From: Halogeometricum pallidum JCM 14848 | GTDB taxonomy: Archaea > Halobacteriota > Halobacteria > Halobacteriales > Haloferacaceae | Direction: 5' to 3' | Length of the DNA: 52,569 nucleotides | NCBI RefSeq assembly: GCF_000337095.1 | Contig: NZ_AOIV01000037.1 | Coordinates: 1 to 52,569 of the forward strand | Shown: piece after piece, positions 30,424-47,469 of the stretch | Numbering within the stretch: position 1 is the stretch's first letter | Layout: each line of letters begins with the position of its first letter | Program-made: the position numbers and the translations under genes | Notes under the pieces: generated by a model | Told to the model about the DNA's origin: nothing | What the model saw: the letters and a program-made list of their open reading frames with translations, nothing else | The model's database searches: none

Positions 30424-31220
30424 GCCTGGACCTCCACGTCCTCGATGCCGAACTGCTCGTCGAGGTCGGCGGCGATGTCGCGGAACACCTCGCACATGTC
30501 GCACTCGGGATTGAACTCTAGGAGCGAGACGCCCGCGTCGAGGGCCTTCTGCACGTCCGCGCGTTCGCGAATCTGCCACACGGGCACGTCGTCGAAGGCC
30601 GCGTTTATCCACTCTACCATCTCGCGCGCCTGCGTCTTCCGCACGTCGATGCGGTTGACGACGACGCCGCGGTCGTGGATGTCTATCTCGTAGTCGTACT
30701 CTAAGGCGTCCACGTGGTCGAACAGCAGCTCGAACGCCCGCTTGGATGTCGACTCCGCGAGGGCTGGGATGAGGACGTTCTGCGTGGCGAACAGTGCGTT
30801 GTCCATGAGGTTGCCGAGGTTGGGCGGGCAGTCGACGATGACGTAGTCGTAGTCGTCTTCCACCTCGCGCAGCACGAGCGAGAGCTGCTCGCCGCTCCGA
30901 CGCGACAGCGTCAGTTCGGGTTCGGCGGCCGTCATGTCGATGTTCGACGGAATGACGTCCATCTCCTCGTGTTCGCGGACGATGTCGGCCACCGTCTCTC
31001 GGTGTTCGGGGTCCGTGAGACAGTCGAACAGCGTCGGTGGTTCGTCGTCGTACGCGTCCATCAGACCGAGGTTCTCCGTCGCGTTCCCCTGCGGATCCAA
31101 GTCGACGAACAGCACGTCGTGCCCGCGGGCGCTTATCGCGCCGGCGACGTTGATGGCGATGGTCGTCTTTCCGACACCGCCCTTCTGGTTCGAGACGCAC
31201 AGTTTTGCCGGGCCACTCAT
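30420..31220 (-). CDS. parA: ParA-family partition ATPase
   Basis: This 266-residue ATPase has the deviant Walker A 'KGGVGKTT' (13-20), 'FVDLDPQGNAT' (about 38-48) and 'YVIVDCPPNLGNLMDNAL', the switch-II region. It lacks an N-terminal DNA-binding domain, so it is a small (type Ib-like or Soj-like) ParA that would position the replicon on the nucleoid. The ATG at 31220 is chosen over an upstream in-frame ATG because TATA-like AGTATAAG lies 28 bases before it. Phased 9-bp repeats lie just upstream of that promoter. It is the first gene of the two-gene operon. Confidence 0.93.
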   Translation of the reverse strand: MSGPAKLCVSNQKGGVGKTTIAINVAGAISARGHDVLFVDLDPQGNATENLGLMDAYDDEPPTLFDCLTDPEHRETVADIVREHEEMDVIPSNIDMTAAEPELTLSRRSGEQLSLVLREVEDDYDYVIVDCPPNLGNLMDNALFATQNVLIPALAESTSKRAFELLFDHVDALEYDYEIDIHDRGVVVNRIDVRKTQAREMVEWINAAFDDVPVWQIRERADVQKALDAGVSLLEFNPECDMCEVFRDIAADLDEQFGIEDVEVQA

Positions 31221-31243: not shown

Positions 31244-31251
31244 CTTATACT
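31244..31251 (-). promoter_or_regulatory. parA TATA box
   Basis: Minus-strand AGTATAAG is centred 28 bases before the parA ATG. TCAAAACTT (31238-31246) overlaps it and resembles the arm of the palindrome at 40792-40816. Confidence 0.65.
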
Positions 31252-31262
31252 TTCCGACAAAG

Positions 31263-31304
31263 ACAGTTTATACAGTCTGTACAGTTTTGCTAGTTTTGCT
31301 GGCA
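31263..31304. repeat. Phased 9-bp repeats upstream of parA (site A)
   Basis: Four consecutive 9-mers occur in perfect register: ACAGTTTAT, ACAGTCTGT, ACAGTTTTG and CTAGTTTTG, followed by CTGGCA. They lie 12-60 bases upstream of the parA TATA box and in the divergent region shared with the ribbon-helix-helix gene. Arrays of this kind next to parA genes act as centromere (parS-like) and/or operator sites in many plasmids. A longer, highly similar block occurs at 47366-47410. Confidence 0.7.
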
Positions 31305-31436
31305 CGCTTCGGCCGGACGCTTTCCCTCGTGGGCGGACGCTGAAGCGCGATAAGAGATAACCGGCACCACGGGCGCGAACGCGGCGTGAACCCCCGCGGT
31401 CGGGCTTCCGTTCTCGCACCGACTCGTCTGCAAACC

Positions 31437-31443
31437 GTATAAG
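31437..31443 (+). promoter_or_regulatory. TATA box of the ribbon-helix-helix gene
   Basis: GTATAAG, about 25 bases before the ATG at 31465. Confidence 0.55.
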
Positions 31444-31464
31444 GCTCCTCCGCCAGTGGGGAGT

Positions 31465-32010
31465 ATGGTCACGAATCGCATCACGGTTTCTCTCGACGCG
31501 GACGCTCAAACCGCCCTGGACAGTCTGACCGACCGTACCGGGAAACCGCAGAGCGAACTCGTCCGCGAGGCGCTGGTCTTCTACGCGGCGAACTTCGAGG
31601 CGGCGACGACGGACGCCGGACCGAACCTCGAAACCTACCACCGGATGCTCGCAAGCGGCGAACACGTCCTCCTCGACGTGGACTTTCTGCACTGCTTTCT
31701 CGACTACGTCGAGGACGAAAACGGCACCCCCGACCCCGAGTTCGTCGAGGCGGCGAACCGGGTCGCGGCGTTCCACGCCCGCGAGTACGAAGACCGCTTC
31801 GAGTCGCTCGGCGAACTCCTCGATTGGCTCTCCTTTTGCGGGTTTCTCACCGTCCGATCATCGGATGACGACGCCTACCACGTCGTCTTCCCCACCGAGT
31901 CGGTCAAGTGGTTCATGACGCAGTTCATCCGGCGCAGCATCGAACCGTTGGCGTTCGATATCGAAATCGAGGAGGGCGTCTCGAAGGTGCTCCTCCGGGA
32001 GGTTCGGTGA
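31465..32010 (+). CDS. Ribbon-helix-helix protein with C-terminal domain
   Basis: This 181-residue protein opens with a CopG/MetJ-type ribbon-helix-helix: strand 'NRITVSLDADAQTALDSLTD' (4-23) and helix B 'GKPQSELVREALVFYAAN'. The remaining 130 residues ('LDVDFLHCFLDYVEDE', 'DRFESLGELLDWLSFCGFL', 'YHVVFPTESVKWFMTQFI') resemble a ligand-binding V4R/heme-NO-like accessory domain, though the match is weak. Divergent from parA with the 9-bp repeats between them, it is an alternative candidate for the protein that binds those repeats. The ATG is preferred over the codon at 31456 because of TATA spacing. Confidence 0.78.
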   Translation: MVTNRITVSLDADAQTALDSLTDRTGKPQSELVREALVFYAANFEAATTDAGPNLETYHRMLASGEHVLLDVDFLHCFLDYVEDENGTPDPEFVEAANRVAAFHAREYEDRFESLGELLDWLSFCGFLTVRSSDDDAYHVVFPTESVKWFMTQFIRRSIEPLAFDIEIEEGVSKVLLREVR

Positions 32011-32144
32011 CGGCTCTCGCATCCGCTCACACGCTTTCGTACTCCTTCACACTCGTTCGCACCGCCGCAGACTCCCGTACGCGCCGTTCTCAAGCGGGTT
32101 TTAACACGGGCGGTCTGATATGCCAAACCACCTCATAGAGATTC

Positions 32145-33362
32145 ATGCATCTACTAGATCGGCTGAAGTCGATCGGTCCGGGCGCGATGGTCGCCGCCGC
32201 GTTCATCGGTCCCGGGACGGTCACGACGGCGAGCGTAACGGGGGCGCGGTTCGGTTACGCGCTCATCTGGACGATAGCGTTCTCGATGGTCGCGACCATC
32301 GTCCTCCAGGAGATGAGCGCGCGGTTGGGGCTGGTCTCCCGCGAGGGGCTCGGAGAGGCGCTCCGAGGCCAGTTCGACAATCCCGTGGCGTCGGCGCTCA
32401 GCGTCGCGTTGGTCGTCAGCGCCATCGGTATCGGGACGGCCGCCTACGAGACGGGGAACATCTTCGGCGGCGCGGCCGGACTGGAAGGACTCACGGGAAT
32501 CAGCGCGAACCTCTGGGGACCGGCGATGGGACTCATCGCCGGTGCGCTCCTCTGGACCGGCAAGTACGACCTCATCGAGAAGGCGCTCGTCGCTCTCGTC
32601 TCGCTGATGGCGCTGTCGTTCCTCGTCGATGCCACCATCATCGGACCGGACCTCGGCGCCCTGGCGATGGGGTTCGTCCCGAGCGTCCCCGAGGGCTCGA
32701 CGTTCCTCATCACGGGACTCATCGGAACGACCGTCGTCGGCTACAACCTCTTCCTGCACGCCGGAAGCGTCCAGGAGCGGTGGGCCGGCCCCGATGAGCT
32801 GGGCGAATCGCGGGTCGACACCGTCCTCTCCATCCTCGTCGGCGGTTTCATCACCATCGCTATCCTCGTCACCGCCGCGGCGGCGTTCCCCGTGGGGACG
32901 AGCATCGAGAACGTCAGCACGATGGCCGAGCAGATAGAACCGCTCGTCGGGACGCACGCGAAGGTGCTGTTCGGTATCGGCCTGTTCGCCGCGGGGTTCA
33001 CGAGCGCGACCACCGCGCCGCTGGCGGGCGCCTACGCGACGGCCGGCGCCCTCGGGTGGGACACCGACCTGCGGTCGACGAAGTTCCGCGCGGTCTGGGG
33101 GACCATCCTCGCCGTCGGTATCGTCTTCTCGGCGCTCGGGTACAGCCCCGTGCAGGCCATCCTCTTCGCGCAGGTGGCCAACGGGATACTGTTACCCATC
33201 CTCGCCGTCTTCCTCATCTACGTGATGAACGACCGCGACATCCTCGGATCGTACGCGAACAGCACGCTCCAGAACGTCGTCGGCGGTGCCGTGACGCTCG
33301 TCGTCATCTGGCTCGGTCTCCGGACGCTCTACACGGTCGCCGGCGACCTGGGGGTGTTCTGA
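32145..33362 (+). CDS. NRAMP-related transporter lacking the metal-binding residues
   Basis: This 405-residue protein has about eleven membrane helices and the LeuT-like NRAMP fold. The helix-1 motif DPGN is replaced by 'GPGTVTT' (22-28). The helix-6 MPHN motif reads VGYN (198-201) within 'VVGYNLFLHAGSVQER'. The Asp, Asn and Met that bind the transition metal are therefore absent, so it is unlikely to carry manganese or iron. NRAMP-related YcsG of Bacillus is encoded with 5-oxoprolinase genes, and here the next genes are HyuA/HyuB. Transport of 5-oxoproline, hydantoin or a similar amide is the working inference. The next gene starts directly at its stop. Confidence 0.8.
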   Translation: MHLLDRLKSIGPGAMVAAAFIGPGTVTTASVTGARFGYALIWTIAFSMVATIVLQEMSARLGLVSREGLGEALRGQFDNPVASALSVALVVSAIGIGTAAYETGNIFGGAAGLEGLTGISANLWGPAMGLIAGALLWTGKYDLIEKALVALVSLMALSFLVDATIIGPDLGALAMGFVPSVPEGSTFLITGLIGTTVVGYNLFLHAGSVQERWAGPDELGESRVDTVLSILVGGFITIAILVTAAAAFPVGTSIENVSTMAEQIEPLVGTHAKVLFGIGLFAAGFTSATTAPLAGAYATAGALGWDTDLRSTKFRAVWGTILAVGIVFSALGYSPVQAILFAQVANGILLPILAVFLIYVMNDRDILGSYANSTLQNVVGGAVTLVVIWLGLRTLYTVAGDLGVF

Positions 33363-35372
33363 GTGGCCGACGAGACGCGCGTCGGCGTCGACGTGGGCGG
33401 GACGTTCACCGACGTCGCGCTCCTGACCGCCGAGGACCGACTCGTGACCGCGAAGGTGCCCAGCACGGCCGACCAGAGCGTCGGCGTCGTCGACGGAATC
33501 GAGAAGGCCTGCGCCGAGGCCGGCGTCGACCCGCGGGAGGTGGGCGCGTTCACACACGCGATGACCGTCTCGGTCAACGCCCTGCTCGAAGCTGACGGCG
33601 CGAGGACGGCGCTCGTCACCACCGAGGGCTTCCGGGACGTGCTCGAAATCGGGCGACAGGCCCGCCCCGACCTGTACGACCTGAGCGTGGAACGGCCCGC
33701 GCCGCTCGTACCCCGCCGCCGCCGCTTCGAGGTGACCGAGCGCGCGACCGAAGCGGGTATCGAGACGCCGGTCGACGAGGAGGAGGTCCGCGAACTCGCC
33801 GACGAGATTCGAGCGTGCGGGGCCGAGAGCGTCGCAGTCTCCCTGCTTCACGCCTACCGACACCCCGAGAACGAACGCGCCGTCGCCGAGGTGCTCCGCG
33901 AGGAACTCGACGCGCCCGTCTCGGCCTCCCACGAGGTGCTCGCGGAGTTCCGCGAGTTCGAGCGCACCTCCACCACCGCGGTCGACGCGTACGTGACGCC
34001 GGCCATCGACGCCTACATCGGCCGCCTCGAAGAGCGAGCCGCGGAGTTGGGCGTCCCCACGCCGCGGATCATGCAGGCCAACGGCGGCCTCGCGTCCGCC
34101 TCGACGGTACGCGAACACGCGGTGACGACCACCATGTCCGGCCCCGCCGCGGGCGTCGTCGGCGCCGCGCAGACGGAGACGACGGACGATCTCGCGGGCC
34201 TCGTCACGTTCGATATGGGCGGCACGTCGAGCGACGTGAGCCTCGTCCGCGACGGCGAGGGCGAACGCACGACGGACGCCGAGATAAACGGGCACCCCAT
34301 CAGGTCGCCGATGGTCGACGTGAACACCGTCGGCGCCGGCGGCGGGTCCATCGCGTGGGTCGACGCGGGCAACGCCCTCCGCGTCGGACCGCGCTCCTCG
34401 GGTGCGGACCCCGGTCCGGCCTGCTACGGACGCGGCGGCACCGAACCCACGGTGACCGACGCGAACGTCGTCCTCGGCTACATCGGTGGCAGTTCCGCGC
34501 TCGGCGGCGAACTCTCCTTGGACGTGGAGGCCGCACACGACGCCTTGGCCGGCCTCGCCGACGAGGCCGGACTCGACGACGCCCTGGCGGCCGCCCGCGG
34601 CGTCTACCGCGTCGCCAACGCGAACATGGCGCGCGCGATTCGCTCCGTGACGGTCGAACGGGGACACGATCCCCGTCGGTTCGGCCTCGTCGCCTTCGGC
34701 GGCGCCGGCCCCATGCACGCCGCCGCCCTCGCCGACGGCCTCGACATCGGCACCGTCGTCGTCCCGCGGGCCTGCGGCGTCCTCTCGGCATACGGCCTCC
34801 TCGCGGCGGACGAGAAACACGACTCCGTGCGGACGCTCCGGAGTCCGCTCGCGGCCGTCGACGTGGCGGCCGTCGAGGCCGCGTACGACGGCCTCTGCGA
34901 CGACGTGCTCGCGGACGTGCAGACGCCCGCGGACGCGGCGGTGTCGCGCGCGGCCGACCTCCGGTACGACGGCCAGAGCTTCGAACTCACCGTCCCGGTC
35001 GGCGAGACGTTCGACCCCGACGCGGTCGCCGAGCGGTTCCACGAGGCTCACGAGAGCGCCTACGGCTACCGGCTCTCGGACCCCGTGGAACTGGTCAATC
35101 TCCGCTCGACTTCCGTCGTCGAACGCGGGACGCTCGACGTGACGTACGGCGCCGTCGGCGAGGCGCGAAAGGACACCCGCGAAGCATTCTTCGACGACGG
35201 TTTCCGCGAGACCCCGGTGTACGCCCGCGAAGGACTCGACGTCGGCGACGACGTCTCCGGTCCGGCCGTCCTCGAACAGCACGAGAGCACCGTCGTCGTC
35301 CCGCCGGCGTGGCGGGGGACGGTCGGGGCCGACGGAACGCTCACCCTGACCCGAGGGGGTGACGAACGGTGA
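33363..35372 (+). CDS. hyuA: Hydantoinase/oxoprolinase subunit A (HyuA)
   Basis: This 669-residue protein has an actin-like ATPase fold of the HyuA type: 'VGVDVGGTFTDVAL' (7-20), 'AFTHAMTVSVNALLE', 'VTFDMGGTSSDVSLV' (phosphate-binding loop 2) and 'PSSGADPGPACYGRGG'-like spacing before 'FGGAGPMHA'. It couples ATP hydrolysis to ring opening of cyclic amides (5-oxoproline, hydantoins) or to acetone-type carboxylation in related families. Begins with a GTG placed directly after the transporter's stop. The subunit B gene overlaps its end (GTGA). Confidence 0.9.
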   Translation: MADETRVGVDVGGTFTDVALLTAEDRLVTAKVPSTADQSVGVVDGIEKACAEAGVDPREVGAFTHAMTVSVNALLEADGARTALVTTEGFRDVLEIGRQARPDLYDLSVERPAPLVPRRRRFEVTERATEAGIETPVDEEEVRELADEIRACGAESVAVSLLHAYRHPENERAVAEVLREELDAPVSASHEVLAEFREFERTSTTAVDAYVTPAIDAYIGRLEERAAELGVPTPRIMQANGGLASASTVREHAVTTTMSGPAAGVVGAAQTETTDDLAGLVTFDMGGTSSDVSLVRDGEGERTTDAEINGHPIRSPMVDVNTVGAGGGSIAWVDAGNALRVGPRSSGADPGPACYGRGGTEPTVTDANVVLGYIGGSSALGGELSLDVEAAHDALAGLADEAGLDDALAAARGVYRVANANMARAIRSVTVERGHDPRRFGLVAFGGAGPMHAAALADGLDIGTVVVPRACGVLSAYGLLAADEKHDSVRTLRSPLAAVDVAAVEAAYDGLCDDVLADVQTPADAAVSRAADLRYDGQSFELTVPVGETFDPDAVAERFHEAHESAYGYRLSDPVELVNLRSTSVVERGTLDVTYGAVGEARKDTREAFFDDGFRETPVYAREGLDVGDDVSGPAVLEQHESTVVVPPAWRGTVGADGTLTLTRGGDER

Positions 35373-36973
35373 GCGACGTGGACGCGGTCATGCTCGAAAT
35401 CATGCGCAATCAGTTGGAGAGCGTCGCCGAGGAGATGGGGCAGGTGCTCATTACCTCCTCGTACTCCCCGAACATCAAGGAGCGACGCGACTGCTCGACG
35501 GCGCTGTTCGACGCGGAGGGGCGTCTCGTCGCGCAGGCCGAGCACATCCCGGTCCACCTCGGGGCGATGCCCGAAGCCGTGGAGACGGTTCTGGGGTACG
35601 ACCCCGAACCGGGCGACGTGTTCGTCCTGAACGACCCCTTCGAGGGCGGCACGCACCTGCCCGACGTGACGATGGTGTCGCCGCTGGCGATAGACGGCGA
35701 GATACTCGGATTCGCCGTCTCCCGAGCCCACCACGCCGACGTGGGCGGGATGACGCCGGGCAGCATGCCCGCGGGCGCGCGCGAGATATATCAGGAGGGT
35801 CTCCGCCTCCCGCCGGTACGGTTGGTGTCGGGCGGCGAGACGAACGACGACGTGCTGTCGCTCCTCCTGGCGAACGTCCGGAACCCCGGCGAACGCCGCG
35901 CCGACGTCCGCGCGCAGATAGCCGCGAACGACCGCGCCGAGGAGCGTCTCGCCGACCTCGTGGCCGAACACGGCAGAGAGCAAATCGTCGCGGCGTTCGA
36001 CGCCGTCATCGACTACTCGCGCGAGCGGGTCACCGCGGAACTGCGCGACCTGCCGGACGGCGAATACCGCGCCCGCGACGTGCTCGAAGGAGACGGTCTG
36101 ACCGACGAGGACATCCCCGTCGCGGTGACGGCGACGGTCGACGGCGGTACCGTCGCGTTCGACTTCGAGGGGACCGCCTCACAGGTGCCCGGCAACGTCA
36201 ACGCGCCGTTGGCGGTGGCCAAGAGCGCCGTCTACTTCGTCGTTCGGTGCGTGACCGACCCCGAGATTCCGCCGAATCAGGGCTGTTACGACCCCATAAC
36301 CGTCTCGGTGCCGGAGGGGTCGCTGTTGAATCCGCGCGCGCCCGCCGCCGTCGTCGGCGGCAACGTCGAGACGAGTCAGCGCGTGACCGACGTGGTGTTC
36401 ACCGCCCTCGCGGACGCCGCTCCCGAACGCGTCCCCGCGCAGGGGCAGGGGACGATGAACAACCTCACCATCGGCAGTCGCGCGGGCGGGTCGGACGGCT
36501 TCACCTACTACGAGACCATCGGCGGCGGGTCCGGCGGCCGCGCCGGTGGCGACGGCACCGACGGCGCGCAGGTCGGGATGACGAACACGCTCAACACGCC
36601 CATCGAAGCGCTGGAGGCCGAGTACCCGCTGTTCGTCGAGGAGTACGGTCTCCGCGCGGGCAGCGGCGGCGACGGCGAGCACCGGGGCGGACTCGGCATC
36701 GTCCGCTCGGTCACCGTCGGGGTCGACGCCACCGTCTCGCTGCTCACCGAGCGTCGCCGGGTCGCGCCGAGGGGTATCGCCGGCGGCGCGGACGGCGCGA
36801 CGGGCGAGAACCTCCTCGACGGGTCGCCGGTCCCCGCGAAGACGACGCGGGACGTGCCGGCGGGGACGACGGTCACCGTCCGAACGCCCGGCGGCGGCGG
36901 CTACGGCGACCCCGAGGACCGGAGCGACGAGGACCGCGAACGGGACCGCGCCGACGGGAAGGAGGAGCGGTAA
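35369..36973 (+). CDS. hyuB: Hydantoinase/oxoprolinase subunit B (HyuB)
   Basis: This 534-residue partner of HyuA is recognised by 'MRNQLESVAEEMGQVLITSS'-like start (about 10-30), 'DFSTALFDAEG'-type segment, 'HADVGGMTPGSMP' (metal/His-rich loop), 'NQGCYDPI', 'GGNVETSQRV' and 'GGGSGGRAGGDGTDG'. Together with HyuA it forms an ATP-dependent cyclic-amide hydrolase. The stop codon overlaps the next ATG (TAATG), keeping the operon translationally linked. Substrate choice among oxoproline, hydantoin and others is open. Confidence 0.9.
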   Translation: MSDVDAVMLEIMRNQLESVAEEMGQVLITSSYSPNIKERRDCSTALFDAEGRLVAQAEHIPVHLGAMPEAVETVLGYDPEPGDVFVLNDPFEGGTHLPDVTMVSPLAIDGEILGFAVSRAHHADVGGMTPGSMPAGAREIYQEGLRLPPVRLVSGGETNDDVLSLLLANVRNPGERRADVRAQIAANDRAEERLADLVAEHGREQIVAAFDAVIDYSRERVTAELRDLPDGEYRARDVLEGDGLTDEDIPVAVTATVDGGTVAFDFEGTASQVPGNVNAPLAVAKSAVYFVVRCVTDPEIPPNQGCYDPITVSVPEGSLLNPRAPAAVVGGNVETSQRVTDVVFTALADAAPERVPAQGQGTMNNLTIGSRAGGSDGFTYYETIGGGSGGRAGGDGTDGAQVGMTNTLNTPIEALEAEYPLFVEEYGLRAGSGGDGEHRGGLGIVRSVTVGVDATVSLLTERRRVAPRGIAGGADGATGENLLDGSPVPAKTTRDVPAGTTVTVRTPGGGGYGDPEDRSDEDRERDRADGKEER

Positions 36974-37548
36974 TGCGTGGCTGGCGCGCCCGACTCGGGG
37001 CGGTCGTCCCCTCCTCGAACACCTCCGTCGAGGGGGAGTTCGGTGCGTACGCACCCGACGGCGTGAGCGTTCACGCCGCCCGGATGCCGCTGGAGTCGGT
37101 CACCCCGACGGCGCTCGACGAGATGGCCGAGGCGGCGGTCGACCGCGCCGAGTCGCTCTCGCACGCCGCCGTCGACGCGGTCGCCTACGCCTGCACCACC
37201 GGGAGCCTCCTGCACGGCCCGGGGTTCGACCGCGAACTCGAAGCCGACATCGCGGAGGCGGCCGGCGTCCCCGCAGTGGCGACGGCGCTGTCCGTGAAAC
37301 GAGCGCTCCGAGCGCTCGACGCCGAGCGATTAATCGTGGCGACGCCCTACGCGGAAGAGTTCGACCGACGCGAGGCCGACTACCTCGACGCGGCCGGGTT
37401 CGAGGTTCTCAACGTCGACGGCCTCGGTCTCGAAGCCGACCGCGGCGTCCCGGTGGTCACGAGCAACGGGGCGACGCTGTGGGACGCGCTCCGACGCGCG
37501 GGCGTCTCGACGGCGAGCGTCCCGGGACGACTCGGAGGGGAGCGGTAA
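36973..37548 (+). CDS. Asp/Glu racemase-family protein (maleate isomerase/AMDase-like) with an internal deletion
   Basis: This 191-residue protein resembles maleate isomerase/arylmalonate decarboxylase, whose members are about 240-250 residues. Present: 'VVPSSNTSVEGEF' (11-23), the first catalytic Cys (C74) in 'AYACTTGS', 'VATPYAEEFDRREADYL' and 'VVTSNGATLWDALRRAG' (161-177). Between 'NVDGLGLEAD' (148-157) and 'RGVPVVTSN' the stretch carrying the second catalytic Cys ('SCTN' region) is missing, about 45-50 residues, without a frame break. It may be inactive, or a different activity. It ends the transporter-HyuAB operon. Confidence 0.78.
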   Translation: MRGWRARLGAVVPSSNTSVEGEFGAYAPDGVSVHAARMPLESVTPTALDEMAEAAVDRAESLSHAAVDAVAYACTTGSLLHGPGFDRELEADIAEAAGVPAVATALSVKRALRALDAERLIVATPYAEEFDRREADYLDAAGFEVLNVDGLGLEADRGVPVVTSNGATLWDALRRAGVSTASVPGRLGGER

Positions 37549-37589
37549 CCCGACGAGTCGATTCGAGAAAAATTCGGTTCGTAATTCGA

Positions 37590-38252
37590 CTACTGGCCGG
37601 GCTGGAACTCCTCGTACGGTTGGATGACGACGAACCCGCCCTCCCCTGCGAACTCCAGTTGGAACGTCTCACCGGAGGAGCGTCCGAGCAGCCCCTTGAT
37701 GTTGATGTCGCGCTTCGCGTTCGGCGAGACGTCGCTGCTCCAGGCGACGGTGGCGTTGGGGTCGGTGCTGACGGGCGTCGGAACGACCAGCGGCTTGCCG
37801 TGCGTCGTGATGGCGATGTGACCCGGACCCTTCAGGTAGACGTTGAACAACCCCCCGGAGGAGGCGCCCGCGATGCTGTTCATCATCTTGATGTCCCAGT
37901 CGACGCTCTCCTCGAACGCGAGCACGTCGTTGCCGTTGACGCTTATCTCGTCGGTCTCGCTCAGTTCGAGTATCTGCACCTCTTTGCCCTGATCGGCGAG
38001 ATAGAGGTTGCCTTCGCCCGTCGCCTGCATCATCACGGTGCCCTCCCCGGTGGCCCGCTTCTTCAGCATCCCGGTGAGACCGCCCTCGGACTTCCGCTCG
38101 AAGGAGATGTCGCCCGTGTAGCCGACCATCGACCCCGCCTTCGCCATGACACTGCCGTTCACGGCGACATCGAGAAGCTTCGAGTTCTCGAGTTGGAACG
38201 TTTCTCCTCCCGATTCCGGTGCGTGCGCGTTAACGAATTCGTCAAGATTCAT
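37590..38252 (-). CDS. AIM24-family protein
   Basis: This 220-residue beta-rich protein has the AIM24 (TRAP-like beta-helix) pattern: 'LDVAVNGSVMAKAGSMVGYTG' (within 28-48), 'GEGTVMMQATGEGNLYLAD', 'GLFNVYLKGPGHIAITTHGK' and 'GETFQLEFAGEGGFVVIQP'. Found across prokaryotes and in mitochondria, its biochemical role is not settled. The ATG at 38252 is chosen because the in-frame part upstream is basic and unlike haloarchaeal protein. Transcribed toward the racemase-family gene, with convergent ends. Confidence 0.88.
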   Translation of the reverse strand: MNLDEFVNAHAPESGGETFQLENSKLLDVAVNGSVMAKAGSMVGYTGDISFERKSEGGLTGMLKKRATGEGTVMMQATGEGNLYLADQGKEVQILELSETDEISVNGNDVLAFEESVDWDIKMMNSIAGASSGGLFNVYLKGPGHIAITTHGKPLVVPTPVSTDPNATVAWSSDVSPNAKRDINIKGLLGRSSGETFQLEFAGEGGFVVIQPYEEFQPGQ

Positions 38253-38531
38253 GGTTTGTTTCGAGCCGCCACCGCGGTGACTCTCGTACGGGTGACTGTC
38301 GCGTGAGACCATAACTGTAGAGCCGTCTCCGGAGTACGCGTTCAGTCCGCACTCGCCCGTTCCCTTCCGTTTTGGCTTCCCGTCGAAACCGGGTCTGGGG
38401 CCGTTCGTGTTCCTCCCCGACCTGTTCGTCGGTGCAGCCACCGCGGTGCTGTACTACCAGAGTCGAACGTAGGGCGACGGGCGAGCGGCGGAGAATCGAG
38501 GGTGTGCGGGCGGTTCGTCTTCTCGGCTCGG

Positions 38532-40136: not shown

Positions 40137-40262
40137 ACGTTCGACTCTCGGCCGCGCCGTATTACCTTTAGTTCCGGTGTGCTATGGTCGGTATTTACGA
40201 TTCAGAGCAGAGAGGGACGTGACAGCAAAGACGGTTTTTCGGTCTTTGCTCTCGGGTCGTCT

Positions 40263-40706
40263 TTACTCGTCGGTGTATCGACCCACGAGAGAGGTCATCT
40301 CCATCTCGTAGAGCGTCAGGTCGATATCGTCGACGTCCTCGTCGAACACCCGGAGCGGACCGAACCGCTCGTTGATTTCGGCGGCGTCGTACGCTTCGCG
40401 TTCGTCGCCGGACAGTCTCCGAAGCGGCCCGGCGGCGACGACGCTCCAGGAGGCGTCGGGACCGTCGACGCCGAAGAGGGCGAACGACGCCTCCGCAGTC
40501 GCCTCCGCGAAGTCGAGTTTCTTGCTGTCGTCGTCGTCCGAGAGGCGGAACAGGAGTGAGTCGCCGTCGTAGGAGTAGGAGACCGGCACCCCGTACGCGA
40601 CGCCGTCGTCGGCCAGCGACAGTACGCCCGCCGACTCCGACCGAAGCCGTTCGTCCACCTCGTCGTCGGTCATCCCGAACGTGTACACGTACTCGATGTG
40701 GTCCAT
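40263..40706 (-). CDS. Pyridoxamine 5'-phosphate oxidase-family flavin-binding protein
   Basis: This 147-residue split-barrel protein has 'GVLSLADDGVAYGVPVSYSY' (27-46), 'LLFRLSDDDDSKKLDFAEAT' (51-70) and 'WSVVAAGPLRRLSGDE', the layout of the PPOX/general-stress FMN- or F420-binding family common in haloarchaea. Likely an oxidoreductase or flavin-binding protein of unknown substrate. Monocistronic. The gap to the next gene contains a CTAGTTTTG palindrome (40792-40816). Confidence 0.85.
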   Translation of the reverse strand: MDHIEYVYTFGMTDDEVDERLRSESAGVLSLADDGVAYGVPVSYSYDGDSLLFRLSDDDDSKKLDFAEATAEASFALFGVDGPDASWSVVAAGPLRRLSGDEREAYDAAEINERFGPLRVFDEDVDDIDLTLYEMEMTSLVGRYTDE

Positions 40707-40791
40707 TGTGCTCGCTCGACCCTACGTCGCCTCGCGGTATCAAACCGCGTACGCCGTTCGGGCGGTCGTCGAATACAAGATGGTTCTTCTA

Positions 40792-40816
40792 TCAAAACTC
40801 TCCCTGCTAGTTTTGA
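40792..40816. repeat. CTAGTTTTG palindrome (site B)
   Basis: TCAAAACT (40792-40799) and AGTTTTGA (40809-40816) form an 8-bp inverted repeat with a 9-base spacer. The right arm includes CTAGTTTTG, the same 9-mer as in the parA-upstream block and the 47.4-kb block. It lies between the PPOX gene start and the MFS gene end. Confidence 0.5.
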
Positions 40817-40931
40817 CAAGCGAGCCGTGAGGGACGATCACCGACTCGACGGCGTGTGACGGAGAACGAGGTGCCACGTCCCTGCCGCCGTCGGGCGACC
40901 TGACGTGCGGCGGCCATCGCGTCGACTGGGC

Positions 40932-42242
40932 TCAGTCAGCCGTGACAGCCTTCGACTCCTCGGATTTCTGGCCGGCCGGCGGCCGGAGCACCAGCGCACC
41001 GAGGCCGGCGACGAGCGCCAACGCGCCGCCGAGTCGGAACGTGGTCGTCCAGTTCGTAGCGACGACGAGCCATCCGGTGACGGCGCCGCCGAACACGCCA
41101 CCCCACATCTTTCCGGAGTAGACGAGCGCGTAGTTCGCCGAGGAGTGTTCCACGCCGTAGTAGTCCGCGACGAGGCTCGGGAACAGCGTGTACTGCGGGC
41201 TCCAGAAGAACGTCGCCACCACGACGGCGGCGAGGAACGCCAACGTCGCCCGCGACTGCGCGAAGGCGACGACGGCGAACAGCCCCACCCCGCACAGCGA
41301 AAACGAGAGGGTCATCGCGTGCCGGCGGTTGAGCCGGTCGGAGAGCCAGCCGATGAGTAGTCGGCCCGCCCCGCCGGCCAGGGGGAGCAGGATGGCCGAG
41401 ACGGTGGCCGTCGCGGCGTCCAACTCCATCGCCTGCGCGAAGGAGATGAGCTTCGCCGTCAGCATCAGCCCCGCGCCGCTCACGCCGACGAACATCGCGT
41501 ACATCACCCAGAACTGCCACGTTCCGAGCATCTCGCGCCACGTGTACTGTCTGCCGCCAGCCGGCTTCGAGTCGTCCCCGTCGTCGGCGTCTGCGCCGGT
41601 GTGCTCGTACCACGACTCGGGCGGGTCGCGGAGGACGACGGCGGCGACGAGGATGGCGAGTCCGATGATGACGCCCATCGCGCGGAGCACGTCGCCGTAC
41701 GCCTCGACCGTCGCGTTCGCGCGCACGAACGGGACGAACAACGCCGCGCCGGCCGAGAACGCCATCGTCCCGAGACCGGTCGTCAGCCCCCGGTAGTCGG
41801 GAAACCACTTGATGGCGGTGTTGACCGCGACGGTGTAGACGATGCCGACGCCGAGCGCACCCAGCGAGTACAGCGCGTAGAGCTGCCAGACCGCGGTTGC
41901 GTACGCCAGCAGGAAGTACGCGCCGCCGGCGAGGACGGCCGCCAGGAACGTCACCGCTCGGGGACCGTGCCGGTCGCGCCACCAACCGACGGGGAACTGC
42001 GACCCCGACTGGACGATGACGAACAGCGTGAACACGAACCCCAACTGCGGCAGCGGGAGGCCCAGGTCCGACGCAATGGGGCCCTCGATGGACGACCAAA
42101 CGTACTGGTAGGGGCTGATGACGGCCATCGCGAGGACGGCCGCGACGACGAGCCACCACCGCGAGAATCCGAGGTGCTCGCGGGCGCGGTCGGCGCGTCT
42201 CGGGTCGTCACTGGTCGAGTCGCCGCCCGGTTCTCCGCTCAT
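40932..42242 (-). CDS. MFS transporter, OFA (oxalate/formate antiporter-like) family
   Basis: This 436-residue protein has twelve predicted helices. The first-half signature 'FPVGWWRDRHGPRAV' and 'LYSLGALGVGIVYTVAVNTA' (about 20 residues), and 'WFPDYRGLTTGLGTMAFSAG', are typical of the OFA family, which exchanges carboxylates. The large central loop is acidic. Its ATG overlaps the stop of the upstream gamma-glutamyltransferase gene by one base (TGATG), so the pair is coupled. A carboxylate or gamma-glutamyl-derived product is the plausible cargo. Confidence 0.88.
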   Translation of the reverse strand: MSGEPGGDSTSDDPRRADRAREHLGFSRWWLVVAAVLAMAVISPYQYVWSSIEGPIASDLGLPLPQLGFVFTLFVIVQSGSQFPVGWWRDRHGPRAVTFLAAVLAGGAYFLLAYATAVWQLYALYSLGALGVGIVYTVAVNTAIKWFPDYRGLTTGLGTMAFSAGAALFVPFVRANATVEAYGDVLRAMGVIIGLAILVAAVVLRDPPESWYEHTGADADDGDDSKPAGGRQYTWREMLGTWQFWVMYAMFVGVSGAGLMLTAKLISFAQAMELDAATATVSAILLPLAGGAGRLLIGWLSDRLNRRHAMTLSFSLCGVGLFAVVAFAQSRATLAFLAAVVVATFFWSPQYTLFPSLVADYYGVEHSSANYALVYSGKMWGGVFGGAVTGWLVVATNWTTTFRLGGALALVAGLGALVLRPPAGQKSEESKAVTAD

Positions 42243-43858
42243 CAGTACGTCCCGACGTGGCCGTCCTTCCGCGGTTCGGTCGCGCCCGAGAGCGTTCCCC
42301 CGTCGTTCCGGACGAGTTGCGCGCCCCCGAACATCCCCGTGTGGAGGACGGACACGTCGTGACCCCGTCGGTTCAGCGCCGCGCCGACCGACCCGGCCAG
42401 CGCCGGTTCGAGCGCCAGGTCCCCGTCCTCGCGGTACCGCCACCGCGGGGCGTCCAGCGCCGCCTGAATCGGCATGTCGTAGTCGACGATGTTCGAGACG
42501 ACCTGCACGTGCCCCTGCGGTTGCATGTAACCGCCCATGACGCCAAACGCCGCCCAGTCGTCCTCGCCGAATTTCGCGAGGGCGGGGACGAGCGTGTGGA
42601 ACGGTCGCTTCCCCGGTTCCAGCCGGTTGGGGTGGTCGTCGTCGAGCGAGAACGACGCCCCCCGGTTCTGGAGTGCGATGCCGGTGTCGCCGGCGACGAG
42701 GCCGGAGCCGAACCCGGCGAACCGGGAGTTGATGTAGGAGACGACGTTACCCTCGTCGTCGGCGACGCAGAGCAGGACCGTATCGGCGTCCTCGGCGTGC
42801 GCCCCCGGCACGCCGAAGGAGACGTCGCTCGGTTCGTCGGTGATGTCGGCCGCGCGCTCTCTGGCGTACTCCTTCGAGGCCAACGGCGGAATCTCCTCGT
42901 ACTCGGGGTCGGTGATGTAGCGGTGGCCGTCGTGGAACGCCCGCTTCATCGCCTCGCCGAAGTAGTGAACGCGCTCCGCGGAGTCGTAGTCGCTGTCCCC
43001 CGCGGCTATCTCCTCGGCGATGTTGAGCGCCTCCAACGCGATGAGCCCCTGGTTGTTCGGCGGGAGTTCGTACACCTCGGTCCCCCGGTACGTCGCGCTC
43101 ACGGGGTCGAGGAACTCCGGTTCGAAGGCGGCGAGGTCGTCGACGGTCATGAAGCCGCCCTTCGACTGCACCTCGTCGGCTATCTTCTCGGCGATGTCGC
43201 CCTCGTACACGGCGTCGGCGCCCTCCTCGGCGACGGTCCGCAGCGACCGGCCGAGTCGCGGGAGCGTCATCGTCTCGCCGACCGTTGGCGGTCGGCCCGC
43301 CGGCAGGAACGCCTCCCGGGCGTGCGCGTCGGTGAACAGTTCGTCGCCGTGTTCCCACTGCGCCGCGACGACTTCGGTCACCGGATAGCCCTCCGTGGCG
43401 TACCGAATCGCCGGCCCGAGGTTCTCCCCGAGACTCCGTCGCCCGAGTTCGCGCGTCGTCGTCTCCCACCCGCGCGCCGTCCCGGGGACGGTCACGGTGT
43501 GCGGTCCCTGCATGGGCATCTCCGCTTCCTCGGGCGCTTCGTCCTCATCGGCGACCGCTTCGCGAACGCGCTCGCGGGTCGCACCGCTCGGCGCGCCGCC
43601 GCAGGCGCGCATCGCGCCCACGTCGCCGTCTGCGGTGCGGTAGAGGGCGAACACGTCGCCGCCGAGGCCCGTCGACGTGGGTTCGACGACGTTCAGCGCG
43701 GCCGCCGTCGCGACGGCCGCGTCGAAGGCGTTGCCGCCGTCGCGGAGCGTCTCGATACCTGCCTGCGCGGCCAGCGGTTGGCTCGTCGCCACCACGCCGG
43801 ACTGACCGTACACGGTCGACCGCCGGGAGGCGAACTCGTCTAGATTCGGCTCGCTCAT
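42242..43858 (-). CDS. ggt: Gamma-glutamyltransferase family protein
   Basis: This 538-residue Ntn hydrolase contains 'GVVATSQPLAAQAGIETLRD' (21-40), 'GGNAFDAAVATAAALNVVEP' and 'TGLGGDVFALYR' from the large subunit. The autocleavage site lies at the Thr of 'DTVLLCVAD' preceding 'EGNVVSYINSRFAGFGSG'. The active-site Arg is present near residue 100 ('MRACGGAPSGA'). It transfers or hydrolyses gamma-glutamyl groups. No signal peptide is visible, so it may be cytoplasmic. The ATG at 43858 is preferred over an in-frame codon 41 residues upstream that would cross the divergent promoter. First gene of a two-gene operon with the OFA transporter. Confidence 0.88.
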   Translation of the reverse strand: MSEPNLDEFASRRSTVYGQSGVVATSQPLAAQAGIETLRDGGNAFDAAVATAAALNVVEPTSTGLGGDVFALYRTADGDVGAMRACGGAPSGATRERVREAVADEDEAPEEAEMPMQGPHTVTVPGTARGWETTTRELGRRSLGENLGPAIRYATEGYPVTEVVAAQWEHGDELFTDAHAREAFLPAGRPPTVGETMTLPRLGRSLRTVAEEGADAVYEGDIAEKIADEVQSKGGFMTVDDLAAFEPEFLDPVSATYRGTEVYELPPNNQGLIALEALNIAEEIAAGDSDYDSAERVHYFGEAMKRAFHDGHRYITDPEYEEIPPLASKEYARERAADITDEPSDVSFGVPGAHAEDADTVLLCVADDEGNVVSYINSRFAGFGSGLVAGDTGIALQNRGASFSLDDDHPNRLEPGKRPFHTLVPALAKFGEDDWAAFGVMGGYMQPQGHVQVVSNIVDYDMPIQAALDAPRWRYREDGDLALEPALAGSVGAALNRRGHDVSVLHTGMFGGAQLVRNDGGTLSGATEPRKDGHVGTY

Positions 43859-43881
43859 AGATGATGTAGTCTCGTCTCCCC

Positions 43882-43988
43882 GCAAAGTACCCCCCCCGGA
43901 TATATCCGCCCTCTCGGCTCGGCGGTGAGGTGAAGTGATACGTTCAATCGTTCCACCAAACGTATCCGGCCCGACGGGCATACTTTGC
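43882..43988. promoter_or_regulatory. Divergent ggt/bat-type control region with mirrored TACTTTGC
   Basis: GCAAAGTA (43882-43889) and TACTTTGC (43981-43988) form a long-range inverted repeat, each reading TACTTTGC on the coding strand of the gene it precedes. Between them, 43897-43908 is the perfect palindrome CGGATATATCCG, a likely TATA element for ggt. Candidate binding sites for the divergent Bat-type regulator. Confidence 0.5.
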
Positions 43989-43992
43989 GAGT

Positions 43993-44691
43993 ATGAGCAT
44001 GCGAGAGGTGGTTCTCCTGGTGAGACACAACGGCGAACCGGAGAGCGACCTCAGCGCGAAACACCCCTCGGTCACGCTCCGCTCCCGTTCGTCGCTGACG
44101 GGTCGGTCCAGCGACCGGCGGCGCATCATCGAGGTGGACGGTCCGGCGGACGACGTGGCGGCCTTCGTCGAGGAGTTCGGCGAGGCCGACTCCATCGTCG
44201 AGCTAGAGGCGTTGACGCCGCTCGGACGGGACCGGGTGTTCATCGCCGTCACCATCGACGTCGGCCGGTGGGACAGCATCGCCGAACGCCTCTCGGACAT
44301 CGGCGTCCACCACCGCAGTGGAACGGTGATTCAGGCCGGCTGGGAGCGGTGGACGCTGTATCTCGACTCCGACGAGAGCCTCTCGGCCATCGTCGAGTCC
44401 TTGGAGGAGGCGGGCAACGCGACGGAACTCAGACGCGACGTCGAACTCCGACATCTGGAGGCGAACGACCAGTTGAACCTCACAAGATTGGCGCACGAAC
44501 TGACCGCACGGCAGACGGAGGTGCTGACCACCGCCATCGAGATGGACTACTACGAGCCGAGCAGAGGGGCGTCCATCGAGGAGGTGGGCGAGGCGCTCGG
44601 TATCTCGCGTTCGACGGCGTGGGAGCATCTCAATCGCGCCGAGCGCAAGGTGATGCGGGAGATACGCTCGTTCCTTCGTACCCGGTCCTGA
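43993..44691 (+). CDS. Bat-type helix-turn-helix regulator (HTH_10)
   Basis: This 232-residue protein has an N-terminal alpha/beta region (about 1-150) of the sort found in haloarchaeal bacterio-opsin-activator-like regulators. A C-terminal HTH_10 domain follows: 'LTARQTEVLTTAIEMDYYEP', then 'ASIEEVGEALGISRSTAWEHLNRAERKVM' spanning about 197-225, with the recognition helix at 'SRSTAWEHL'. No PAS/GAF sensor is obvious. Divergence from ggt-OFA suggests it controls that operon. It lacks a strong TATA box but has TACTTTGC five bases before the ATG. Confidence 0.88.
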   Translation: MSMREVVLLVRHNGEPESDLSAKHPSVTLRSRSSLTGRSSDRRRIIEVDGPADDVAAFVEEFGEADSIVELEALTPLGRDRVFIAVTIDVGRWDSIAERLSDIGVHHRSGTVIQAGWERWTLYLDSDESLSAIVESLEEAGNATELRRDVELRHLEANDQLNLTRLAHELTARQTEVLTTAIEMDYYEPSRGASIEEVGEALGISRSTAWEHLNRAERKVMREIRSFLRTRS

Positions 44692-44850
44692 GTCGACGCT
44701 TCGAGTCCGTTCCGTCGTCGATCCGAACCCCGGCCATCGGGGGTGTCACCGCTTCACACCGCCGAAACGGCGATAAGCTATTTCCACGTGACGGCAGAAA
44801 AACTGGCCACCACGAGCAGGTGCGATACCTGTCTCCGAATCCACCCAACC

Positions 44851-45975
44851 ATGTCTTCGAAAACTACGGACTCCCTGCACGACCGAATCGAAGCGGTATC
44901 GAACGCGGAAGCCGACGGCGAGCAACTCGTCTCCGTCGCCATCCCGCCGGAGGAGTCGCTCGAAGCGACGCGGCGGCGCGTCGAGGAGGACCACGCCGAG
45001 GCGGAGTACCTCGACGTCCGCGAGGAGGTCCGCAAGCCGCTCAAGCGAGCGCTCGAAGAGACCCGTCGCGTCCTCCACGAGTACGAGGAGACGCCCGAGA
45101 ACGGGCTGGCCGCCTACGTGGGCGTCGTCGACACCGACCTCGTGACGCACGTGTTCGACGACCTGCCGACGCCCGTCTCGGAGGGGACGTACGGCTACGC
45201 CAACGAGTTTGACACGGACCCGCTCACGCCCGCGGCCGAGCGGACCGATACGTACGGCCTCCTCGTCGTCTCCCGCGACAGCGCGACGCTGGGGCGGTAC
45301 GACGGCGAGACCATCGAGCACGTCGACACCGTCGAGAGCGACGTGCCGAGCAAGCAGACCGCCGCGGGCGGCGACGAGGACGGCTTCCATGGTCGGAGCC
45401 AAGAGCGCGCGGACGAGTTCTACGACGAGGTCGGCGAGGCCGCGGCGCGCGTGTTCCTCGACGACGCGCCGCCGGACGCCGTCGACGACGCGTCCCCCGG
45501 CACCCAGTTCGAGGGCGAGGCGCTCCTCGTGGCCGGCAGCGAGGTGACCGCCGAGCGATTCCTGGAGGGCGACCACCTCTCGGAACCGCTCGCCGACGCC
45601 GCCGTCGGCCCGTTCGACGCGGAGTACGCCTCCGAGCAGGGTCTCCGGGAACTCGTCGACGCAGCCGAGGAGGCGGGCGAACTCGGTACGACCGACGCCC
45701 GCGGGGCGCTCGAACGGTTCTTCGAGGCGCTCGACGACGACGAGGAGACCGCTATCGGCGGACGCGAGGACGTTGACCGAGCGCTCGAACTCGACGCGGT
45801 CGACACGCTCGTCGTCGCCGACTCGCTTCCGGAGGAAGAGGTGCAGTCGCTGGCCGAACGCGTCGAAGAACAGGGCGGCGAGAGCGTCGTCGCGCCCGAG
45901 GGACTCGACCGGACGGAGCGACTCGAAGCGGCGTTCGACGGCGTCGGCGCGCTGCTTCGGTTCCCGATAGAGTAG
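44851..45975 (+). CDS. aRF1/eRF1-related protein lacking NIKS and GGQ
   Basis: This 374-residue protein aligns by eye with archaeal release factor 1 over all three domains: 'LVSVAIPPEESLEATRRRVE' (26-45), 'HEYEETPENGLAAYVG' (76-91), 'YGLLVVSRDSATLGRYDGE', 'ERADEFYDEVGEAAARVFLD' and a C-terminal domain ending 'GVGALLRFPIE'. The stop-codon-reading NIKS is replaced around 53-56 (YLDV). The peptidyl-hydrolysis GGQ is replaced by GGD (173-175). It is therefore not a normal release factor. eRF1-family paralogues (Vms1/Pelota-like and prokaryotic ones) act in ribosome rescue or quality control; a related role is possible. The 36 codons upstream of the ATG are of poor composition. Confidence 0.8.
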   Translation: MSSKTTDSLHDRIEAVSNAEADGEQLVSVAIPPEESLEATRRRVEEDHAEAEYLDVREEVRKPLKRALEETRRVLHEYEETPENGLAAYVGVVDTDLVTHVFDDLPTPVSEGTYGYANEFDTDPLTPAAERTDTYGLLVVSRDSATLGRYDGETIEHVDTVESDVPSKQTAAGGDEDGFHGRSQERADEFYDEVGEAAARVFLDDAPPDAVDDASPGTQFEGEALLVAGSEVTAERFLEGDHLSEPLADAAVGPFDAEYASEQGLRELVDAAEEAGELGTTDARGALERFFEALDDDEETAIGGREDVDRALELDAVDTLVVADSLPEEEVQSLAERVEEQGGESVVAPEGLDRTERLEAAFDGVGALLRFPIE

Positions 45976-46074
45976 CGCCGCGCACCACCCGTCGCTGACC
46001 GTCTTCGGTTCCGGTCCCGGTCTCTGTTCGGCCCGTCTTCTCCGTTCCGCACTCGCTCTCGTTTTCGTCCCCGC

Positions 46075-46932
46075 TCACCGCTTGGGGGCGAGGAACTCGC
46101 CGAGCCGCCGGTCGAGTCGAGAGACCTCCACGTCGCCGCTCCTGACGGTGACGACCGCGTTTTCGCACAGCGACTGGACGACTTCGGTCGTCGACCCGCC
46201 GACGAACTCCCGGAGTCGACCCTTCTTCGGGGCGCCGATGACCGTCGCGCCGTAGTACGACGACTGGTCTACGATAGCCTGCGCGGGCGACTCGTCCCCC
46301 TCTCTCTCGTAGCGCCAGGTGTCGAAGTTCGCGAACCCGAGCAGCCGATCCGAGCAGTACTCGAACAGGTCGTCGACGTCGCCCTCCGTCTCCCCCTCCT
46401 CGACGACGTGAAACAGGTCGACCCAGGCGTCGTCCGATTCGGCGAGTGCGCGCGCCATATCGAGCGTCGAGTCGAGGTGCGGTCCGCGCGCGACGGGGAC
46501 GAGCACCGAGGAGATACCGTCGAGTTCCGAACCCCGCGTCACCGTGACGTGGCTCCCGCCCGAGGCGAGGGCCAGTTCGCCGCCGCCGAGCATCGACTTC
46601 CGGTCGCGGATGTCGAAGATGACGGTGATGTCGAAGCGGTCGACGACGTCCGTCACCCACTCGGCGGTCACCGTCGGCGGCCGTTCGAGAAAGCGCGTCT
46701 CGTAGTCGGCCGTCGCGTCCGACGACGACGGCTTCAGCGACTCGGCGACGGTCGCGTCCCGTACGGGGACGACGAACCGGCCGCCGTCCGCCAAGGACTC
46801 GGCTACCTGCAGGAACTGTCCGTCCGCCGGTTCTCCGGGGTCGAACAGACAGAGCACCCGCTCGCTCGTCGTCCGTCCGCCGTCCGAGGAGGCGTACCCG
46901 ACGGTCTGACTCCCCTCGAAACGGTTAGGCAT
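46075..46932 (-). CDS. Universal-stress-protein-like protein with two Usp-type halves
   Basis: This 285-residue protein consists of two alpha/beta halves. The first ('VLCLFDPGEPADGQFLQVAE') is degenerate. The second has the Usp pattern 'GISSVLVPVARGPHLDSTLD', 'DLFHVVEEGETEGDVDD', 'YYGATVIGAPKKGRLREFVGG' and 'TTEVVQSLCENAVVTVRSGD', with the G-x2-G-x9-G(S/T) nucleotide loop only partly kept. Haloarchaea carry many Usp-type proteins near transporters and channels. The ATG at 46932 is preferred to that at 46947 because of a TATA-like TTATTACC about 25 bases before it. Confidence 0.75.
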   Translation of the reverse strand: MPNRFEGSQTVGYASSDGGRTTSERVLCLFDPGEPADGQFLQVAESLADGGRFVVPVRDATVAESLKPSSSDATADYETRFLERPPTVTAEWVTDVVDRFDITVIFDIRDRKSMLGGGELALASGGSHVTVTRGSELDGISSVLVPVARGPHLDSTLDMARALAESDDAWVDLFHVVEEGETEGDVDDLFEYCSDRLLGFANFDTWRYEREGDESPAQAIVDQSSYYGATVIGAPKKGRLREFVGGSTTEVVQSLCENAVVTVRSGDVEVSRLDRRLGEFLAPKR

Positions 46933-46989
46933 GGGCGACTGTTGCATCGAGAGGTAATAAACCTCCGTCCCGGTCAGCCCGTGCGACGT

Positions 46990-47202
46990 TCACTCCTCGG
47001 GGGAGAAATCGTTACCCCGCCAGCGGGCCAGTACGACGCGTTCTGCGCGTTCGAGGCCGGTGTCGTCGACCCACGCCTCGGCGTCCGGCTTCGAACAGGA
47101 CCGAAGTTCCATGACGGCCGCCACGAGGTCGGCGTACGGACGGGGCTCGACCGGGTCGTCGCTCACGTCCAACTCGTCGACGGACGGCGGCGGAACGGGC
47201 AT
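46990..47202 (-). CDS. Small acidic hypothetical protein
   Basis: This 70-residue acidic protein is unrecognised. It has a proline-rich start and a helix-turn-helix-like C-terminal half ('PDAEAWVDDTGLERAERVVL'), ending 'WRGNDFSPEE'. The start ATG at 47202 is chosen over an upstream in-frame codon because the acidic composition begins there. The 9-bp repeat block C is about 165 bases upstream of its start. Confidence 0.5.
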   Translation of the reverse strand: MPVPPPSVDELDVSDDPVEPRPYADLVAAVMELRSCSKPDAEAWVDDTGLERAERVVLARWRGNDFSPEE

Positions 47203-47365
47203 CGTCGACGCTACGCCCGCAGCGTTCAACAGTGGTTCGGCCGACGGTTCGGCGCCGCGCCGGTCGCGCTCACTCGTCGGGGTCGGCGTAGAGCTATCTA
47301 CGGGGCTGAACGCGCGGTTCGAGCGCCGAACCGAATCGACCGACGGTCGAGGACGGACCTCAAAG

Positions 47366-47410
47366 GCAGTTTGGGCAGTTTTGCTAGAAAGTCTAGTTTT
47401 GCTGGCAAAG
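47366..47410. repeat. Phased 9-bp repeats (site C), matching the parA-upstream block
   Basis: Five consecutive 9-mers: GCAGTTTGG, GCAGTTTTG, CTAGAAAGT, CTAGTTTTG and CTGGCAAAG. The order CAGTTTTG - (9-mer) - CTAGTTTTG - CTGGCA is the same as at 31282-31304, with one extra 9-bp unit inserted. It lies in the gap between the small acidic gene and the nucleoside hydrolase, about 16 kb from parA. Confidence 0.7.
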
Positions 47411-47469
47411 ATAGATTTCCTGTCCCGCTCGCGACCGCTTCGCCGAGCGACGGCCCCGCCGCCCAGGGC

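Follow-up and report, generated by a model that had tools for sequence, protein, structure and literature searches.

Phased 9-bp repeat arrays as probable centromere sites of a ParA/adaptor partition system on a Halogeometricum megaplasmid

The window analysed here, a stretch of 52,569 nucleotides from Halogeometricum pallidum JCM 14848 (contig NZ_AOIV01000037.1, positions 1 to 52,569), carries a parA gene followed by an unannotated gene, which we call the adaptor gene (Table). The ParA protein scored 145.5 bits against Pfam AAA_31 (cut-off 27), identifying it as a ParA-type partition ATPase, and 100.6 bits against NCBIfam ParA_partition, which is under the equivalog cut-off of 180. Orthologs of parA (65-97%) are found in four congeners (G001-G004) and in G010, G011, G020 and G022, and the TATA box is conserved in the congeners, mostly as GGAAAGTATAAGTTTTGA. 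On the same strand, a gene for an AAA ATPase of 547 aa (27169-28812) stays beside parA and the adaptor gene in G001, G002 and G003, and further 9-bp arrays are located between the adaptor gene and this ATPase gene in the congeners. A CopG/RHH-type gene (31456-32010, forward strand) is divergent from parA.

Table. Coordinates of the genes and repeat features at the parA locus (window positions, strand) and contigs matched by the repeat sequence
Feature	Position	Strand	Remarks
parA, 266 aa, Walker ATPase, leaderless-like promoter	30420..31220	-	Pfam AAA_31, E 2.1e-42
Adaptor gene, 162 aa, unannotated; start overlaps parA stop by 4 bp	29935..30423	-	candidate centromere-binding protein
Linker-coding 9-bp (3-codon) array, CAAAAC units: GGCAAAACC GGACGAGAC AGCAAAACC GGACGAGAC	30182..30290	-	candidate coding array
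parA TATA box, abuts array 1	31245..31249	-	read from sequence, 27 bp before ATG at 31220
Array 1, unspaced 9-bp units directly 5' of parA TATA box	31246..31304	-	PWM scores 31.9, 30.9; shuffles at most 13.5
Array 1 units, coding sense	31246..31304	-	CAAAACTAG CAAAACTGT ACAGACTGT ATAAACTGT CTTTGTCGG AAAGTATAA
Palindromic site TCAAAACT-N9-AGTTTTGA	40792..40816	.	intergenic, same 9-bp register as the blocks
Array 2, 9-bp units as in array 1	47360..47420	+	PWM scores 34.1, 32.7
parA-bearing contigs matched by CAAAACTNGCAAAACT	C37; G001:C4; G002:C7; G003:C4; G004:C4; G011:C5		

Two repeat blocks and a palindrome share a 9-bp register. Block 1 (31264-31304) reads CAGTTTATA CAGTCTGTA CAGTTTTGC TAGTTTTGC TGGCA and block 2 (47367-47411) reads CAGTTTGGG CAGTTTTGC TAGAAAGTC TAGTTTTGC TGGCAAAGA. 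The initial annotation of this DNA had described the same ordered 9-mers in both blocks, with one additional 9-bp unit in the second, and had placed a related palindrome at 40792-40816; both observations hold, the extra unit being TAGAAAGTC and the palindrome, TCAAAACT-CTCCCTGCT-AGTTTTGA, falling into the register of the blocks as TATCAAAAC TCTCCCTGC TAGTTTTGA. All three sites are intergenic, as had been stated. Block 1 itself was correctly recognized at 31263-31304, but its end point was not, as the array runs on in register along the coding strand to the TATA box of parA, to 31246 (CAAAACTAG CAAAACTGT ACAGACTGT ATAAACTGT CTTTGTCGG). Similarly, the three 9-mers quoted as the shared feature do recur, but what is shared is not limited to them and is instead a degenerate 9-bp unit. 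The 15-mer CTAGTTTTGCTGGCA has two copies in the 4.38-Mb genome, both within the window, compared to an expectation of 0.0024, and CTAGTTTTG has three exact copies in the window, in block 1, block 2 and the palindrome.

The unit has the consensus YRKYTTTGM in a position matrix, and units abut without spacer, in both orientations and in a single register. This matrix was built with local background, as a free-running EM without it drifts to AT-rich DNA. Arrays were called at a PWM score of at least 14, with shuffles peaking at 13.5; a site at 40207-40249 (score 13.0) is inside the shuffle range and was not counted. A second matrix was trained on 58 non-coding units only. Upstream of parA, the arrays of the four congeners G001-G004 vary in length by whole 9-bp units, a pattern to be expected from selection for the 9-bp step itself.

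A scan of 1.44 Mb of parA replicons revealed about 37 arrays scoring at least 14, whereas none reached this score in 600 kb of control contigs, where the non-coding-unit matrix gave two weak matches (best 15.2). With up to two mismatches allowed, CAAAACTNGCAAAACT matches C37 and C38 only within this genome and, across Halogeometricum and G011, is nearly confined to the parA-bearing contig, apart from two matches on G002:C3 and single ones on G004:C5 and C38; G002 is Halogeometricum limi (contig NZ_FOYS01000005.1). Because a 61-kb stretch of C38 is collinear with G003:C4, C38 is probably part of the parA replicon. Searching for the palindrome across relatives yielded much the same replicon picture, including a near-identical palindrome 5' of parA in G011. 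The initial annotation had proposed such a genome-wide search and had taken random spread, or spread over other replicons, as evidence against its centromere. The motif withstood this test: the arrays are all but confined to the replicon with parA, where they occupy conserved intergenic positions, and they occur likewise on the matching replicons of the four congeners and one related genus.

Thirty of 33 merged arrays are located outside predicted genes, though coding sequence makes up about 80% of the DNA; the count is approximate, as genes were predicted by a simple GC3 rule, which overlooked the adaptor gene on two or more replicons. In the congeners, a cluster of arrays near parA is accompanied by two or three distant sites, and in the held-out congener G004 the matrix scan detected five arrays within the 40 kb surrounding parA, plus a strong array at about 277 kb that scored 41.6. 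Several sites have counterparts at orthologous places. Exact arms of the palindrome are present at the same spot in G003, though no alignment is possible for the intergenic DNA around them; array 2 corresponds to a degenerate array in G003 (188051-188104), and the array at 151380-151448 of C37 has a counterpart at the orthologous intergenic place of that genome. On C38, the array pair at 107801-107863 and 108977-109039 has counterparts at orthologous intergenic sites in G003, and also in G001. The blocks could be remnants or termini of mobile elements, since their similarity ends at the block edges, or chance low-complexity DNA from 9-bp slippage, which could yield short repeats with extra 9-bp units. 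This explanation is already disfavoured and hardly credible: the units are degenerate rather than identical, their consensus recurs across genera, they occupy orthologous positions with diverged flanks, and chromosomal controls are without arrays.

The placement of the three sites in the window could also point to operators of a small plasmid regulon, by which the adaptor or another plasmid regulator would control parA and a few genes with no centromere role. Array 1 abuts the TATA box of parA, the palindrome is found about 90 bp (87-110 bp) 5' of the start of a pyridoxamine-oxidase-like gene, and array 2, 16 kb from parA in the intergenic region between the 3' end of a nucleoside hydrolase gene and a small ORF, lies 165 bp 5' of an ORF. 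However, in several cases (C38 108977-109039, G003 31833-31931 and G002 8334-8378) the neighbouring genes converge on the array and no gene start is close, so that a promoter would be unexpected there; others, as candidate coding arrays, are inside the adaptor coding sequence, and the genes flanking the arrays have no obvious common function. Moreover, one DNA can serve as operator and centromere, as in pSM19035 (PMC9499535). We thus consider a purely regulatory role unlikely, and regard array 1 as a candidate for both centromere and operator.

The 9-bp rhythm extends beyond the genus. A motif-free test, the autocorrelation of the 500 bp 5' of parA at 21 loci outside Halogeometricum, ranked lags 9, 18, 27 and 36 first to fourth (z 12.6, 11.0, 10.6 and 7.0). 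Because undetected genes raise all multiples of 3, the contrast was taken as multiples of 9 versus other multiples of 3; the regions upstream of parA gave 0.048, compared to -0.0001 for 113 intergenic regions used as controls (p 8.7e-9, Mann-Whitney test). The 9-bp phasing on which the initial annotation had insisted is thereby borne out, with the same period recurring 5' of the same parA in other genera. In line with this, the top match of the Halogeometricum matrix is the par locus on three held-out plasmids of other genera: just 5' of parA (348-374) on the 196-kb contig G020:C3 of Halobaculum, at the par locus of G022:C12, and, as the two best matches, in the linker of the adaptor OE_RS13300 and the parA promoter of Halobacterium salinarum R1 pHS4 (40.9 kb, NC_010367). 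On pHS4, a 147-bp hypothetical gene (36852-36998) carries an automatic call as mupirocin resistance, which is doubtful by its length and context. The matrix scan does not single out the par locus on the Halomarina BND7 plasmid (NZ_CP100459). Just 5' of parA, at about 95350-95660, this plasmid carries arrays of GAGAGGTAC and AGATGGAGGAGGGAGAAG (9 and 18 bp), which suggests that the step is constant while the unit sequence changes, possibly reflecting a different incompatibility type.

Short direct repeats are also typical of iterons, and orc1/cdc6 is encoded near parA on some haloarchaeal plasmids (e.g., orc1 at 3077 and parA at 116 on Halomarina BND7), so that the arrays might belong to the replication origin of the megaplasmid, as iterons or as initiator sites. 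We consider this very improbable, as the arrays are scattered over the entire replicon, at distances from parA of up to about 160 kb, and their tie across genera is to parA and the adaptor; an unsystematic look noticed no initiator gene beside the arrays of the window. There is good support for the arrays and their phase, for their replicon specificity and conserved positions, and for the family-wide tie to parA and the adaptor. Because phased sites are scattered over the plasmid and the same rhythm recurs beside the same partition gene pair, the arrays probably function as a plasmid centromere.

The initial annotation had looked for the binder in two places, a ribbon-helix-helix protein and the partition adaptor. 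The first was not borne out. A search with the RHH gene at 31456-32010 gave no match on the G001, G002, G003 and G011 sister replicons, and 5' of parA in G003 and G004 no more than remnants of its start region are seen; the gene is therefore not the conserved partner and was rejected as binder. From this distribution it looks recently acquired, or decaying elsewhere. A partition adaptor remains the best candidate, but this is the unannotated frame at 29935-30423, concealed within a longer frame in the mechanical ORF list. Its product has an Arg-rich N-terminus, an acidic, low-complexity and disordered linker, and a conserved C-terminal domain (SVKDEQ..TYMYLP..FEKNRHFYPLVV..GL in the window). 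Relatives share the motifs MS(D/G)..RA.RLR.RR and SVKDEQ..TYMYLP..(F/L)EKNRHF(Y/F)PLVV..GL. Sequence searches of Pfam, NCBIfam and PDB returned no match to the adaptor. Two modest structure models show a helix, disorder and further helices; the best, built from three sequences, has a mean pLDDT of 75 and no strand. Fold searches gave no match that would place the C-terminal domain in a DNA-binding fold, a point that speaks against the centromere reading. The sequence order TYMYLP, helix, helix is compatible with that of a ribbon-helix-helix domain. We consider it likely that the adaptor binds the arrays.

The pair of ParA and adaptor is widespread on haloarchaeal plasmids. Among 243 genomes of the order, 106 encode the adaptor, and 43 of 78 genera are represented. 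It is also present on 72 plasmid records, on which it is labelled hypothetical protein, and the 4-bp overlap with parA is seen in nearly all loci extracted. No relatives were found on viral contigs. A second ParA/adaptor pair of the H. pallidum genome (G000:C34 7185-8374) encodes a ParA that is 41% identical to the one described here; a matrix scan of the first 20 kb of C34 did not reveal arrays of the YRKYTTTGM kind.

We consider it likely that a ParA/adaptor partition system of a haloarchaeal megaplasmid uses the blocks as its centromere (parS) sites; for this system we infer the identity of the binder, its cooperativity, ParA stimulation, autoregulation and partition as follows. The adaptor would bind the unspaced 9-bp units cooperatively, in either orientation and one register, probably as one dimer per unit, and assemble into a filament along an array, which comprises about 2 to 12 units. 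Its Arg-rich N-terminus would stimulate ParA on the nucleoid, leading to movement of the plasmid, and adaptor bound to the array at the parA promoter would repress its own operon. Arrays within about 16 kb of parA, together with two or three far off, would constitute a dispersed centromere.

The six parS sites of pSM19035 overlap promoters and consist of 7-bp units without spacers, to which the RHH protein Omega binds; activation of ParA requires four or more such units in a contiguous row (PMC9499535). The best reading by analogy is that the ParA/adaptor arrays work like these delta/omega heptads, outside the heptad family. As in pSM19035 (ParA Delta, ParB Omega), a small ParB-like adaptor is combined with several arrays per plasmid that overlap par promoters and consist of contiguous, unspaced short repeats, direct and inverted, abutting the parA promoter; a dual role as operator and centromere is proposed here as well. 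In contrast to the heptad WATCACW, the period is 9 and the consensus YRKYTTTGM, the system is archaeal, and the arrays are spread over the replicon and partly within the adaptor coding sequence. Moreover, unlike Omega, the adaptor has a long disordered linker and shows no detectable relation to that protein.

Among archaeal systems, SegAB of Sulfolobales and Euryarchaeota also combines a ParA-type ATPase with an overlapping downstream partner gene, here for a putative DNA binder, and has many sites across the replicon that are denser near the genes, one of them just 5' of segA (PMC12284271). However, SegB recognizes a 13-bp palindrome, TCTAGA-S-TCTAGA, with 39 ChIP peaks at mostly intragenic, chromosomal sites (PMC12284271), whereas we observe largely intergenic 9-bp arrays on plasmids, a comparison drawn from the description of SegB. 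The AspA-ParB-ParA system of pNOB8 likewise mediates partition of an archaeal plasmid, and its DNA-binding protein forms a left-handed helix on DNA (PMC5120986); in contrast to its three genes with a winged-helix AspA and a large chimaeric ParB, our system comprises two genes and no ParB. TP228 ParF/ParG and related small-RHH systems resemble it in the flexible basic N-terminus of the adaptor, the C-terminal DNA-binding domain (putative here) and the repeats beside the par operon (PMC7308502). TP228 differs in being bacterial, in its single centromere next to the operon and in its repeat length, and homology was not detected.

Haloarchaea are highly polyploid and harbor many large plasmids. 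To our knowledge, how they keep these plasmids is largely open, and our literature search found no paper describing a haloarchaeal plasmid centromere or the adaptor. If the proposed system exists, it would provide ParA on roughly 100 plasmid records with the cis site and the DNA-binding partner that it has so far lacked, extend the known repeat-array centromeres by one with a 9-bp step and mean that dispersed plasmid centromeres exist in archaea. The array sequence could then be used to predict plasmid incompatibility.

The stretch at 30182-30290, which encodes part of the adaptor linker, is the strongest 9-bp-periodic stretch of the entire 162-kb contig, and the linker coding sequence takes the same rank on most par replicons scanned. 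A coding centromere in the linker is plausible but not established. It would form part of a broader picture, that of a widespread haloarchaeal plasmid partition family whose dispersed nonad centromere is in part written into the codons of its binder's own disordered linker, the same DNA being linker gene and centromere; we regard this as tentative, somewhat short of an even chance. If the partition system is as proposed, it becomes testable whether the coding sequence of a binder can harbor the binder's own centromere. Linker DNA did not match the upstream array of its own plasmid better than the arrays of other plasmids (p 0.31), and the argument for a coding array is therefore carried by the codon tests, whose loci are partly dependent. 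Codon choice was tested because a three-residue protein repeat alone would give a 9-bp periodicity. Outside the genus, linkers scored a mean of 12.2 with the non-coding matrix, compared to 5.5 after synonymous recoding and 9.6 after permutation of their own codons (Fisher p 1.5e-10 and 7e-5, respectively, a significance that is overstated given 21 related loci). Codon choice in the linkers thus favours array units beyond amino-acid need, and lysine is encoded by AAA at 42 of 57 positions in the linkers compared to 48 of 126 elsewhere in the adaptor gene.
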